Assembly: GCA_020073215.1 (NCBI GenBank)
Contig: JAIQFO010000006.1
Coordinates: 1-64,000, forward strand
DNA from: Terriglobia bacterium
GTDB lineage: Bacteria; Acidobacteriota; Terriglobia; Terriglobales; Acidobacteriaceae
Direction of reading: 5' to 3'
Length of the DNA: 64,000 bases
Positions within the stretch are counted from its first letter, which is position 1. Each line of letters starts with the position of its first letter. Below are positions 17,922-46,004 of this stretch, one piece after another. The notes beneath the pieces are model-generated. The model had not been told where the DNA came from. It did no database searches and worked only from the letters and a program-made list of their open reading frames with translations. A program made the translations under genes and the position numbers.

Positions 17922-17971
17922 GATTGGGGGCACGCCAAAAGGAAGTCCTGTGTTGCTGTGACCGCGGGCGG

Positions 17972-18020
17972 CTGCCGAGCTTCGCTCGGCTCGGACGGGC
18001 GAGGGCGCCCGTCCCCACAC
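17972..18020 (-). repeat. GTGTGGGGACGGGCG palindrome family, copy 2 (double hairpin)
   Basis: GCCGAGC-TTC-GCTCGGC then GGACGGGCG-AGGG-CGCCCGTCC-CCACAC. Confidence 0.85.
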
Positions 18021-18030
18021 AAGCAGTCCG

Positions 18031-39755: not shown

Positions 39756-40841
39756 CTAGCTCCGCCGGCGCTCCTTCCACACTCGCCAGTCTTTCTCCAT
39801 CGCGTCTGCCATCGCCTGCGCCGCTCCCGCCAGCCAGCCCCTTTTTCGCCCCCGTAAATCTTTCAGGATTGCCTTCCGCTTCTCCGCCGTTCCCAGATGA
39901 ACATTCGCAGTCTCTCTGCCCATCGCCTCCAGCAGCCGCAGTTCCCTTTTGCTCGTCTTTAATTCATCCAGTTCGATGCGCGAGCAATGCGGCGACAGCC
40001 GCCGCACAATCCAGCTTCCCCGCATCTGCACGTACGGATCGGGACAGCGCACCGCCTCCTTCAGAATCGCGCCATACAGAATCTCTGCCGTCGCTTGCTT
40101 CGGATTCACCCAGTGCAACGCCGAGGGCAACAGCGCCTTCGCTTCCCGCGCCACACGCGCGCCCCTCCACTCCGCGATCGCTACCAACCGCACCCGTCCC
40201 AGGCTTCCCAGCCCGGCCCTTCGCCGTGCCAGCCGATACGGGATCCCGCGCTCCGGCAGCAGATGCTCAATCGCCTCGCGCGCGCTTTCTGGAACTTCTC
40301 CCTTGGCCGTAGGCAGACGATCCATCTTCCCCCAGAACACAGCCGGATCGCGCAGCTTGCTCTCCGCGATCGCCCGCAACTACTCATGATTCTCGCCCAA
40401 CACAAATGCCCGCCCGCCCGACTCCATGCTGCGCTCGTATCCCGCCAAAATCGCCGCCACTGACTCTTTCGGCTTCATCGCCAGGCGATGCGCCCGTATC
40501 GCCAGCAGCGCGCTCGCCGCGAGCCGGACCAGATCCATGGTGTAGGGATACACACCGGCTTCGTCAAAATCGTTGATCCCCCACACCAGCCGCCCCTCAC
40601 AATCTCGCCAGGTGCCAAAATTCTCCACGTGCAGATCGCCCACCGACAAAAGACGAGGCGCCTGGTCGAGTTTCGCACACACCTCCGGCCACAGCTGCAA
40701 CCACCGGTAAAACGTAGCCCGCAGGAACGGAAACGGACCCCCCGCCATCTGTTCGTGCTTGAACTTAAGATCGGGCTCCACAATTCGGATGTGCGACCCC
40801 AGCCAATCCTCATACTTCTGGGTAGCCTTAACAATATTCAT
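39756..40841 (-). pseudogene. DUF2252-like protein interrupted by an in-frame TAG
   Basis: ORF 40380-40853 (LSVGDLHVENFGTWRDCEGRLVWGINDFDEAGVYPYTMDLVRLAASALLA) ends ...GENHE-TAG; the same frame continues -LRAIAESKLRDPAVFWGKMDRL to 39756. Confidence 0.75.
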
Positions 40842-40923
40842 GGCCGCTAACAATAGGAACGCAGCTCTACCTTGTCAAGGCAGATGGAACCGCGCACTCC
40901 GTCCTGTTATGATGTGCGCGCCC

Positions 40924-43128
40924 ATGTTGCGAAATTCTCATCTGGAATTGTGGGGACGGGTGCGAGTGTGGGGACGGGCGTCCTCGCCCGTCCAAGCCGA
41001 GCGAACCGGGGTCCCGGTCAAGCCCGGTTTTGGCTTGACGGGGTGGAGGAGCTCGGCAGCCGCCAGTGGCCACCGTAACTCTGGACTCGCTCTTGCCCTC
41101 TTTCTGCTCGCAGTCTCCCCAACCCTCCAAGCCCTCCCCGCCCCGAAAACGCCGCCGCCGGCGCCGCACCCCGTCCGCCTGGTCCAGCAATCGATCCCCA
41201 TGCCCGACGGCGTCCACCTCGCTGCCACGCTCTACATGCCCAGCGACGCCAAGCCCGGCGAAAAATTTCCCGCCCTGCTCGAATATCTCCCCTATCGCAA
41301 AGACGATGCCACTGCCGCCCGCGACTATCCCATCCACGCCTGGTTCGCCGCCCGCGGATACGTCAGCGTCCGAGTGGATATCCGAGGCTTCGGCGCGAGC
41401 GAAGGTAGGCCCACCGACCGGGAATATTCCGAGCAGGAGCAACGCGACGGGGAGCAAGTCATCGCCTGGCTGGCCGCTCAGCCCTGGTCCACCGGCAAAG
41501 TGGGAATGTTCGGCATTTCCTGGGGAGGCTTCAACTCCATCCAGATGGCTATGCGTCATCCGCCCGCGCTCAAAGCCATCCTGGCCGTCGACGCCACCGA
41601 GCAACTCTTCCACGATGACATCCACTACATCGACGGCATGATGCACTTCGACGAGTTCGAACTGAACATGGACCTCGCCCCCGCCATGACCGCAGCCCCC
41701 GACTACTCGCTCGACGAAAAAGTTCTAGGTCCGCGCTTCGACTCCGCGCCCTGGTCCCTGCTCTACCTCAAGCATCAGCGCGACGGCGAATTCTGGCGCG
41801 CCCCCGTCCGCCCGCTAAGCGAAATCAAAATCCCCTGCTTCCTGATCGGAGGCCTGCTCGATGGCTATCGCGATTCCATCCCCCGCATGTTCGAGCAAGT
41901 CAAAGCTCCGGTCAAAGCCATCATCGGCCCATGGAATCACACCTTCCCCCACGACGCCGAACCCGGCCCCCAAATCGAATGGCGAGATCAGGCCCTCCGC
42001 TGGTGGGATTACTGGCTCAAAAACCGCAACACCGGAATCATGGAAGAGCCGCCGCTATCCATTTATATGCAAGACTGGCACGCCCCCGACGCGCACCTCA
42101 AAACCGTACCGGGAAAATGGCGAGGTGAAATTGGGTGGCCACCCAGGAACGTGGCGAACACGACCCTCTACCTCTACGATACTCACGCCCTCTACACCGA
42201 TGCCGCCAAGCCCGCCGTCCATCAACTCCGCTACATTCCAAGCGTTGGCGTAGAAGCCGGATTCTGGTGGGGAGAGTTGCTCACCGACCAGCGCCCCGCC
42301 GACGCTTTCAGCCTAACCTACGATTCCGCCCCGCTGAAAACAGAACTTACCATCCTAGGACGCCCCCACGCCCTGCTTCAAGCAAGTTCGTCCGCCCCGC
42401 TCGCCAACTGGTTCGTGCGCCTCTCCGATGTAGCTCCCGACGGCACCACAACCCAAGTTACGGGAGCGGGACTGAACGGCACGCAGCGCGACAACGCCTC
42501 CGACCCCAAGGACCTGGTCCCGAATCAGACTTACTCGCTAGATATAGAAATGCATCTCACCACCTGGACCTTCCCCAAAGGCCATCGCATTCGCCTCGCA
42601 ATCTCGAACGCGCTCTGGCCCATGATCTGGCCAACTCCCTATGCGATGACGACCACCCTGCAACTGGGCGGCGACACCGGATCACGCTTGACCGTGCCGC
42701 TAGTCCCACCCTCGATGTACGCCGCTCCCGAATTCGCGCCTCCCGAGCCCTCCGAGCAGCGCAATGACTTTCAGTCCGTAGGTTTCCCCTGGCCCGGCGA
42801 TTGGAAAACCGAACGCGACGAGCTCGACGGTAAAACAAAAGTGACGTGGAAGGGAAAGTCCGAAGAGATTTACCCCTGGGGAAAAGAAACCGACTTAGAA
42901 GACCTGACCTACGTTGCCGATGACAAGCACCCCGAAACTAGCTCCGTCGAAGGCGAAGCCAAAATCGTGATGGCCCTGAAGCAGCAAACCCTAACCTGGC
43001 AAGGCCACCTAACCCTAACCAGCGATGCCCAGAACTTCTACTACAAGTACACCCGCCAGCTATTCAAAGACGGCCAGCAGATCAAAGAGAAAACCTGGCA
43101 GGAAACGATTCCGCGAGACCACCAGTGA
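40924..43128 (+). CDS. CocE/NonD family hydrolase (X-Pro dipeptidyl-peptidase S15-like)
   Basis: MPDGVHLAATLYMPS, FAARGYVSVRVDIRGFGASEG, VGMFGISWGGFNSIQMA, IGPWNHTFP; C-terminal jelly-roll. Confidence 0.85.
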   Translation: MLRNSHLELWGRVRVWGRASSPVQAERTGVPVKPGFGLTGWRSSAAASGHRNSGLALALFLLAVSPTLQALPAPKTPPPAPHPVRLVQQSIPMPDGVHLAATLYMPSDAKPGEKFPALLEYLPYRKDDATAARDYPIHAWFAARGYVSVRVDIRGFGASEGRPTDREYSEQEQRDGEQVIAWLAAQPWSTGKVGMFGISWGGFNSIQMAMRHPPALKAILAVDATEQLFHDDIHYIDGMMHFDEFELNMDLAPAMTAAPDYSLDEKVLGPRFDSAPWSLLYLKHQRDGEFWRAPVRPLSEIKIPCFLIGGLLDGYRDSIPRMFEQVKAPVKAIIGPWNHTFPHDAEPGPQIEWRDQALRWWDYWLKNRNTGIMEEPPLSIYMQDWHAPDAHLKTVPGKWRGEIGWPPRNVANTTLYLYDTHALYTDAAKPAVHQLRYIPSVGVEAGFWWGELLTDQRPADAFSLTYDSAPLKTELTILGRPHALLQASSSAPLANWFVRLSDVAPDGTTTQVTGAGLNGTQRDNASDPKDLVPNQTYSLDIEMHLTTWTFPKGHRIRLAISNALWPMIWPTPYAMTTTLQLGGDTGSRLTVPLVPPSMYAAPEFAPPEPSEQRNDFQSVGFPWPGDWKTERDELDGKTKVTWKGKSEEIYPWGKETDLEDLTYVADDKHPETSSVEGEAKIVMALKQQTLTWQGHLTLTSDAQNFYYKYTRQLFKDGQQIKEKTWQETIPRDHQ
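40966..41064 (+). repeat. GTGTGGGGACGGGCG palindrome family, copy 3 (four hairpins), inside the 40924 CDS
   Basis: GGACGGGCG-TCCT-CGCCCGTCC; GCCGAGC...GCTCGGC enclosing ACCGGG-GT-CCCGGT and GTCAAGCC...GGCTTGAC. Confidence 0.85.
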
Positions 43129-44329: not shown

Positions 44330-44733
44330 TTCGGATGATTGTTGATAATCCCGATTTCACTCGTTGACCGGGTCAATGAGCGGTTAGAGTATTGCCTCCT
44401 GAAGCGGGCTTGCCCCATGACCAAAGCAGCGAAGAACCGCCTATCCGCAGTCCTTCGCGCGACCGAGTACCTGTTCCTTGGAAAACATCGCGCTCAAATT
44501 TTGTCCTCGAATACCGCGCCGTCCCCAACTGGCAAAGACTGCTTGAGAGCCTCCTGGATCACCAGGAAATGACGACAAGGAAATGTTGGCCGGAGTGCGT
44601 CTGAAATTTCGAGATCTCTACGACCAACTGGCAGGGGTCCGCAGATCCGTCCGGCGCCCTCGAAGCCCTTTTAGCCGAACTCCCGGCTCCGAAGAAACCG
44701 CACTAGTACCGCGACCGCGTGAAATCTTCACTT

Positions 44734-44931
44734 CCTGTCACCCTGAGCGGAGGTGGCCGCGTCCGAAGGGAGCGGCCGCCGGAGTCGCAGGGCCCCTATT
44801 CCGCCCGTGGTCCCTCTCCTGCGATGCATGGCGCAGTGTTTGCAGAAAAGAAAGAACGAAGCGGGGGGGTGCTTCGACTCCGGGAGAGGGTCCGCCATGC
44901 GGACCCTCTCGCTTCGCTCAGCACGACAGGA
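44734..44931. repeat. Long imperfect inverted repeat of the CTGTCATCCTGAGCGAAG class with inner hairpins
   Basis: TCCTGTCACCCTGAGCGGAGG ... CGCTTCGCTCAGCACGACAGGA; inner GAGAGGGTCCGC-CAT-GCGGACCCTCTC (44884-44910). Confidence 0.7.
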
Positions 44932-45089
44932 CCGATAACCCACGGCAAAGATAATTCCACGCGATCACGGTCCTAGCACTCTGGGGAAGGCCCGCTTTAA
45001 TACGCTGCCCAAAACCGAATTCGTCCCGTTACCTCAGTTACCTTCCGGTCGTTCTGAACCGCAAGATACGCTGCTAACGGAGGTCAACC

Positions 45090-45440
45090 ATGCGACGCCG
45101 TACCGCTGCCGCGCTCCTGGCCCTACTTTTGGGAGCGGCCGCATTCTCCCCATCCTTGGCCCTGGCGCAAGACTCTTCCACTCAAAACCAGACGGAAACC
45201 AAGCGGAAGATTGTGAACAAAGTGGTCCCAGCGTATCCAGATCTAGCCCGCAAGATGCATCTCAGTGGAACCGTCAGAGTGGAAGTTGTAATTGCGCCCG
45301 GCGGAAAAGTGAAGACGACTCAAGTGATTGGCGGCAATCCCGTGTTGGCACAATCCGCGGTGGATGCCATCGAGCACTGGAAATGGACACCGGCGTCGCA
45401 GGAAACCCAAGAACTGATCGAACTCAGTTTTCACCCCTAG
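45090..45440 (+). CDS. Periplasmic TonB C-terminal-domain protein (copy 1)
   Basis: Signal peptide then KVVPAYPDLARKMHLSGTVRVEVVIAPGGKVKTTQVIGGNPVLAQSAVDAIEHWKWTPA. Confidence 0.85.
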   Translation: MRRRTAAALLALLLGAAAFSPSLALAQDSSTQNQTETKRKIVNKVVPAYPDLARKMHLSGTVRVEVVIAPGGKVKTTQVIGGNPVLAQSAVDAIEHWKWTPASQETQELIELSFHP

Positions 45441-45598
45441 GAACCTGCAGCACAAGTGACAGGCAACTCCGGGCCTTTTAACCAGCACCGCTTGAGTGCT
45501 GTTCTTGTACTTTATGCCAAAAGCGAATTCGTGCCGTTACTTCGGTCACTTTTCTAAGCTCCCGACCGAGCGGTAGGCTAGTCGCGGTGAGGTTACTC

Positions 45599-45934
45599 AT
45601 GCGAAGTCTTGCCGCAACCGCGCTCCTGGCGTTATTTTCGGGAGCGGTTGTATTGTCCCCATCTTTCGCCCACACTCAAGATCAGCCGGAAGCCAAGCGC
45701 AAGATTGTGAACAAAGTGCTCCCGGTGTATCCAGAGTTAGCGCGCAGAATGCAAAGCGTTGGAACTGTCAGGGTGGAAGCCGTCGTGGCACCCAACGGAA
45801 AATTGAAGTCCACCACGGTGCTGGGCGGCAACCCGGTGTTGGCACTCGCTGCGGTCGATGCCATCGAAAAATGGAAATGGGCGCCGGCTCCTCAGGAAAC
45901 CAGAGAAATCATAGAACTCAATTTCCATCCCTAG
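45599..45934 (+). CDS. Periplasmic TonB C-terminal-domain protein (copy 2, tandem paralogue)
   Basis: KVLPVYPELARRMQSVGTVRVEAVVAPNGKLKSTTVLGGNPVLALAAVDAIEKWKWAPA. Confidence 0.85.
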   Translation: MRSLAATALLALFSGAVVLSPSFAHTQDQPEAKRKIVNKVLPVYPELARRMQSVGTVRVEAVVAPNGKLKSTTVLGGNPVLALAAVDAIEKWKWAPAPQETREIIELNFHP

Positions 45935-46004
45935 GCGGGCGCCCCGCTTCTCGCGCTTTTCGATTGGGCTGTGTGTTTGCACGCTCCGCCATCCCGGTGA
46001 GTAA

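Follow-up and report, generated by a model that had tools for sequence, protein, structure and literature searches.

The locus described here raises the question of whether a dispersed palindromic repeat that lies directly behind the start codon of a gene for an exported enzyme has become part of the protein. In-frame intragenic repeats have been described mainly in Rickettsia and a few REP-rich genomes. In the window, by which we mean the whole 64,000-nucleotide stretch of DNA from a soil acidobacterium that was analysed, an open reading frame (MLRNSHLELWGR...RNSGLALALFLLAVSPTLQALPAP) starts at ATG 40924, continues uninterrupted into a Peptidase_S15/PepX_C hydrolase and ends at 43128. The domain assignments are strong (Pfam; Peptidase_S15, E = 2.5e-55; PepX_C, E = 1.4e-35). 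Our preferred reading, to which we give a probability of about 0.75, is that a REP-like element entered this gene in frame, just after its first codons, and was kept as translated residues, as one instance of a process that operates throughout the genus.

A repeat behind the first codons of a secreted hydrolase

The features of the locus, all on the plus strand, are as follows.

40905..40913, plus strand: extended -10 promoter element TGTTATGAT, 10 nt 5' of ATG 40924
40924..43128, plus strand: coding sequence of a CocE/NonD-type secreted hydrolase with insert, 734 aa (Pfam, genus orthologues)
40924..40946, plus strand: host start and first codons MLRNSHL, flanking the insertion on its 5' side (alignable with G004, G005 and G017)
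40947..41097, plus strand: REP-like element, long variant, in frame (borders good to a few bases, from the 72-copy consensus, genome copies and empty sites)
40949..40964, plus strand: extra partial element head TGTGGGGACGGGTGCG, like the doubled heads in copies L008-L011, L014 and L015
40966..40993, plus strand: GTGTGG tag and stem 1 (GGACGGGCG-TCCT-CGCCCGTCC)
40996..41057, plus strand: stem 2 with arms GCCGAGC (40996-41002) and GCTCGGC (41051-41057), enclosing a nested hairpin
about 41013-41044, plus strand: nested hairpin inside the stem 2 arms, present also in L002-L007
41058..41097, plus strand: 3' tail of the element, encoding AAASGHRNSGLALA, the first residues of the hydrophobic core (consensus tail CAGCAACTCTGGATTCGCTATAG)
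41086..41136, plus strand: hydrophobic core from residue 54 onwards, with the likely cleavage region (GLALALFLLAVSPTLQA; hydropathy scan)

The preliminary description had placed a repeat insertion near the hydrolase start at 40939-41082. Both the insertion and the repeat are real, and the borders move to 40947-41097. On the 5' side, comparison with G005 (CGAAGTTCTCAGCCGG) and G004 (CGAAGTTCGTATCGG) shows host sequence running to about 40946. On the 3' side, the sequence 'cgtaactct|ggactcgct' belongs to the element tail, and the 72-copy alignment extends the element to about 41097. The second RNS and the GLALA that follows it (SGLALA) are thus encoded by the element, and SGLALA enters the hydrophobic core.

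The proposed size of exactly 48 codons stands, since the distance from the ATG to the mature domain is 255 nt here and 111 nt in each of five relatives with an empty site (G017, G020, G006, G010 and G001), a net gain of 144 nt. No copy of the element is present at the site in 14 aligned hydrolase orthologues, and the empty site that had been predicted is found among them (for example MFLRSRVAFAILAPLAVSASLCALPVPK in G017), which bears out an in-frame repeat behind the start codon of a signal-peptide gene. A target duplication had also been suggested from the two RNS-encoding boundaries, and this we reject: one of the two is host sequence, the other ('cgtaactct') is part of the element consensus, and the clean empty-site comparison available at argJ, described below, shows no visible target duplication either.

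Consensus, fold and abundance of the repeat family

The palindrome GTGTGGGGACGGGCG-TCCT-CGCCCGTCC noted earlier in the inserted segment does belong to a family, with 43 blast matches to the focal region in the genome (5.6 Mb, 111 contigs). Searches with the core palindrome at up to 2 mismatches returned 62 forward and 86 reverse matches, a total of 148 in which some sites are counted twice due to the core being nearly self-complementary; the reversed control returned 0, which excludes chance as the source of the repeat. The tagged palindrome GTGTGGGGACGGGCGNCCTCGCCCGTCC occurs in 51 exact copies. In a sample of 120 genomes, the exact pattern is limited to the genus, save for four other genera of the family with 1 to 3 copies apiece.

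Alignment of 72 copies from this genome defines a unit of about 87 bp, bounded sharply on the 5' side at (TC)GTGTGGGG and less sharply on the 3' side at ...CAGCAACTCTGGATTCGCTATAG; the long focal variant measures about 150 bp. The unit forms three hairpins, with a 9-bp stem (GGACGGGCG/CGCCCGTCC), a 7-bp stem (GCCGAGC/GCTCGGC) and a third around GTTGC/GCAAC, and it folds far better than shuffled sequences (z = -4.20 for the consensus, -3.48 for the focal copy). Some copies carry one or two additional heads, and several, including the focal one and L002-L007, have the nested hairpin in the second loop. A sister form combines GTAG with GGACAGCCG...CGGCTGTCC, in which both arms of stem 1 have changed in step. 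Rfam offered one sub-threshold match to CRISPR-DR29 (21.7 bits against a gathering score of 39), which we take as a chance hit produced by the palindrome.

The window holds a second copy, of the canonical short type and detected as inverted repeats I2/I3, whose flanks are coding on opposite strands and which is not in frame with a gene.

17936..18025, minus strand: second, canonical short copy of the element

Two further observations concern other parts of the window. At 39756-40853 on the minus strand, two abutting ORFs of 157 and 207 aa occur. The match of the first to the DUF2252 model (392 positions) covers only positions 5-121, so a stop or a frameshift may have divided this neighbouring gene. 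At 45179-45441 and 45673-45935, a tandem repeat of 77% identity covers two adjacent small ORFs with TonB-like C-terminal domains and is a local gene duplication.

History of the insertion

The preliminary description implied an event confined to a single genome. The two nearest relatives, G004 (93% amino acid identity) and G008 (91%), each have a copy at this position as well; both copies are in frame, and they have diverged and differ in composition. An N-terminal extension made of non-repeat DNA in such relatives had been raised as evidence against an insertion, and what both sharers carry is related repeat DNA. In the nucleotide tree, the three carriers form one clade, with support of 100/100 for our genome plus G004 and 63/84 for the addition of G008. 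The protein tree is too weak to place G008; the carrier clade was taken from the nucleotide tree and the protein tree set aside. The simplest reading is that there was probably one insertion in the ancestor of the three species, followed by in-frame remodelling, with moderate support for the single origin (63/84).

These comparisons also bear on whether the insertion could be an assembly or binning artefact of a metagenome-assembled genome. The assembly is a draft of 111 contigs with 5.65% contamination, and the named relatives, members of Terriglobia/Acidobacteriaceae, are themselves MAGs. Against an artefact, two other genomes have diverged copies with open frames at the same site, and the DNA match to G004 covers the whole region, promoter included; we consider this explanation to have almost no chance of being correct.

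A separate case is G018, where the ancestral ATG of the hydrolase is lost and about 100 nt of other sequence stands in its place (L025/L133). The hydrolase of this genome seems to start at a downstream ATG.

Promoter and start codon

The meaning of the insertion depends on where translation begins. A motif of the form TGnTAT[GC]AT lies 8 to 13 nt upstream of an in-frame ATG in 16 of the 18 hydrolase orthologues, and the same kind of extended -10 motif precedes only 1 of the 1,682 ATGs in the window. Leaderless genes have been found in all 3 Acidobacteria studied, using a -10-like signal about 10 to 12 nt before the start codon as the criterion (PMC3160421), and a signal with this spacing is present at the hydrolase ATG. 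The promoter before ATG 40924 therefore predicts a leaderless or near-leaderless mRNA, on which the start would be set by the 5' end of the message. Since the insertion lies just 3' of the promoter and start codon, both are intact, and everything downstream must keep the frame.

The alternative to translation through the repeat is that the element is extragenic in practice, sitting in a 5' leader upstream of a true start, with the open frame being fortuitous. Di Nocera et al. (PMC3733652) caution that N-terminal intragenic REPs often reflect mis-annotated starts and hence may be extragenic. In-frame candidates within the insert are TTG 40948, GTG 40960, GTG 40966 and TTG 41035, the last of which would give an n-region of 15 residues; G004 has an internal in-frame ATG directly before the hydrophobic core that yields a normal signal peptide, MRAILVLLAISASLHALPVPK. 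The element core is also often stop-poor by composition. Selection of the element for openness in all six frames was considered as well and discarded; the core is stop-free in every frame, yet so are 11.6% of dinucleotide shuffles.

Several observations oppose a downstream start. The conserved promoter stands right before the upstream ATG and leaves hardly any leader, and three alleles of unlike length all keep the upstream frame open. No Shine-Dalgarno sequence was found at TTG 41035, the last in-frame start in the insert, so an alternative start near 41083 with its own ribosome-binding site, which had been named as a finding that would speak against the insertion being translated, is not there. 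In G008, the stretch from the first bases of the element to the mature domain contains no ATG, GTG or TTG. The preliminary description had left two outcomes side by side, a long n-region or a downstream start. Judging by the leaderless-type promoter and the G008 allele, we favour read-through from ATG 40924 and regard a downstream start as unlikely. Read-through predicts peptides from LWGRVRVWGRASSPVQAER...

Consequences for the signal peptide

With translation from ATG 40924, the hydrophobic core begins at residue 54, compared with residues 44 and 48 in the carrier relatives and residue 7 in the empty-site G017 (hydropathy scan). The net charge ahead of the core is +5 to +6, and AlphaFold gives pLDDT values below 50 for nearly all of residues 1-74. 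We infer translation from ATG 40924 and export with a long n-region.

Signal-peptide regions have been struck at least three times in this genome, in the hydrolase, in CcmH and in an SBP_bac_5 protein. The last of these has a short signal peptide, MRRIAFLFLAAISLASTATA, in G001; here and in about eight relatives, the protein begins with MRRIAYRFLAAIS, followed by the repeat and then by a new hydrophobic stretch. Across the SBP_bac_5 carriers (L309-L326), the original hydrophobic stretch is weakened and the new one lies 3' of the repeat, which gives the impression of a rebuilt signal peptide. The n-region of ccmH varies in length and content throughout the genus (L255-L278) and includes repeat-like sequences such as CHPERSEGPAF and LKGRGFSRAV...AALAAEG. 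A translated sequence of this other kind appears to be present in the window as well, at 44583-44954 on the plus strand, where an ORF containing SCHPERRWPRPKGAAAGVAGP looks like a translated member of another dispersed repeat family (CHPERSEGP type).

The recurrence in signal-peptide regions, together with the folding of the element far beyond that of shuffles, could be taken to mean that the insert is translated and kept as a regulator, either through hairpins in the early RNA that tune translation or mRNA stability, or through an n-region that alters targeting. The content of the insert differs strongly among the three species, and most copies elsewhere lie in unrelated enzymes or between genes; both fit tolerance better than function, and we judge a regulatory role to be improbable.

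In-frame copies in other genes

In-frame copies are not confined to the hydrolase. About 75 copies were sampled through loci, a sample rather than a census, with three copies that have indels in the core added by hand. A codon-usage scan of both flanks of 72 copies found 19 with coding on the same strand and in the same frame on both sides versus 4 with a shifted frame, and 14 of the 19 have an open frame across the element. Three of the shifted copies (L003, L017 and L078) had been candidates for out-of-frame intragenic copies, and each turned out to be intergenic, with a gene on either side; the fourth, L055, extends a GtrA-type protein at its N-terminus. None of the approximately 75 sampled copies proved to be both intragenic and out of frame.

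Besides the one in the hydrolase, 18 in-frame intragenic copies in the same sample have Pfam support. They lie in metH, an HGSNAT/acyltransferase-like membrane protein, ubiD, an FGE-sulfatase, a MacB/FtsX permease, a GHMP kinase, prmC, an ADH-Gfo/Idh fusion (two copies), lipB, phosphoglucomutase, aconitase, mutS2, two molybdopterin oxidoreductases, an ABC exporter, mnmE and argJ. Many of these are housekeeping genes. In mnmE, a second copy is found further along the gene.

A clean case is argJ, in which 15 genus relatives have RPDLAL.....ATAAALF-like sequence free of the element. Here the protein reads LALVE-VWGRPCVGTGASPVQAERSSAVAGG-ASAAALF, and G003 has a shorter copy at the same place. The interrupted gene is the sole full-length argJ match in the assembly. 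In lipB, likewise represented by a single full-length match, the repeat sits between GVWT and KIAAIG, within the region that aligns to the solved lipoyltransferase 1w66. In relatives (L329-L351), the corresponding gap either is empty (EAEPAA) or holds other repeat-like sequences, in every case in frame, among them SVGPGSFGSAQDKLRPGLGGSETRPHT, SVGPGSFGSAQDKLRPG... and SAGQPGAAVPT. This gap appears to be a hot spot for several repeat families.

Relation to known repeats and a candidate mobiliser

In format, the family is close to the GTAG/GTRG REPs (PMC3733652, PMC2817692). A GTRG tag, which is GTGG abutting GGACGGGCG...CGCCCGTCC in the main form and GTAG in the sister form, stands at the 5' foot of the palindrome; the GC-rich stem-loop that follows is short and present in tens of scattered copies. 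Doubled heads, subfamilies with paired stem changes and some copies inside ORFs are shared as well, and the REP of Pseudomonas putida, TGTGGGAGCGGGC.TGCCCGCGAA (PMC2817692), has nearly the same layout. The acidobacterial unit differs in having three hairpins, in its repeated strikes on signal-peptide regions, and in its length. REP units measure 20 to 40 bp, and here the tagged stem 1 takes up 28 bp with conservation reaching about 87 bp, two to four times the length of a REP; we therefore class the element as a REP variant that works like a REP rather than as a standard member. Acidobacteria are absent from the phyla given for GTAG repeats in the 2013 survey (PMC3733652), and our literature search on acidobacterial palindromic repeats found nothing specific to this GTGG-tagged family.

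Two other classes invite comparison. The Rickettsia palindromic elements (RPEs) occur as in-frame insertions in many apparently functional genes that are unrelated to one another (PMC10969869), as do the 18 Pfam-supported copies here. Compared by description, RPEs have a CGTC tag (Di Nocera et al.) and belong to obligate intracellular Alphaproteobacteria, whereas the present family has a GTGG tag and a free-living acidobacterial host. MITEs such as ERIC and Correia/NEMIS are similarly short, non-autonomous and hairpin-forming, and in-frame gene fusions are known for them. Unlike MITEs, the element has its hairpins internally, with no terminal inverted repeats that span the unit, and left no target-site duplication at argJ. 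Since REPs include intragenic copies (PMC3733652) and RPEs have been described, the phenomenon is not new in kind; what is new is an acidobacterial, three-hairpin REP family found repeatedly in signal-peptide regions.

No transposase was found next to the focal repeat, and no Y1/RAYT gene flanked by the exact repeat was found at 8 loci of this genome and 20 of the genus, all in draft assemblies. At L253 (G000:C46:1-3400), a Y1_Tnp (RAYT-like) gene has GTGTGG/GTGTAG-tagged GCGGGCG...CGCCCGC palindromes on both sides. This locus is possibly a REPtron of a sister family, and its gene a plausible mobiliser of that sister family.

From insertion to protein segment

The course of events that we propose begins with mobilisation, presumably by a RAYT-like enzyme or by recombination. 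The element would have entered behind the first codons of the hydrolase signal-peptide region, probably a single time, before the three species separated. With the promoter and start upstream of the insertion fixing the point of initiation, on an mRNA that is probably leaderless, a working enzyme would have been made only where the insertion and later indels kept the frame. The insert would then have stayed as about 50 translated residues forming a long, positively charged and disordered n-region, and the tail of the element would provide the residues with which the hydrophobic core opens. The same process would be at work across the genus, copies in coding DNA surviving where they are in frame.

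A broader proposal, which we put forward tentatively and consider somewhat doubtful, is that short palindromic repeats from several unrelated families repeatedly give rise to new protein sequence in this genus. Certain permissive sites (the gap in lipB before KIAAIG, the ccmH and SBP signal peptides, and argJ) would be entered many times over with only in-frame copies persisting, and in exported proteins the signal peptide would be rebuilt, with the repeat serving as a long basic n-region and a new hydrophobic core arising downstream.

With at least 18 copies in one genome and many empty-site relatives, the question of whether mobile repeats can add new protein segments becomes testable gene by gene, and several of the in-frame copies are in enzymes that have a single full-length match in the assembly, as in argJ and lipB. 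The signal-peptide cases offer a direct test of how long an n-region is still compatible with Sec export, and of the limits that a leaderless start sets on insertions.
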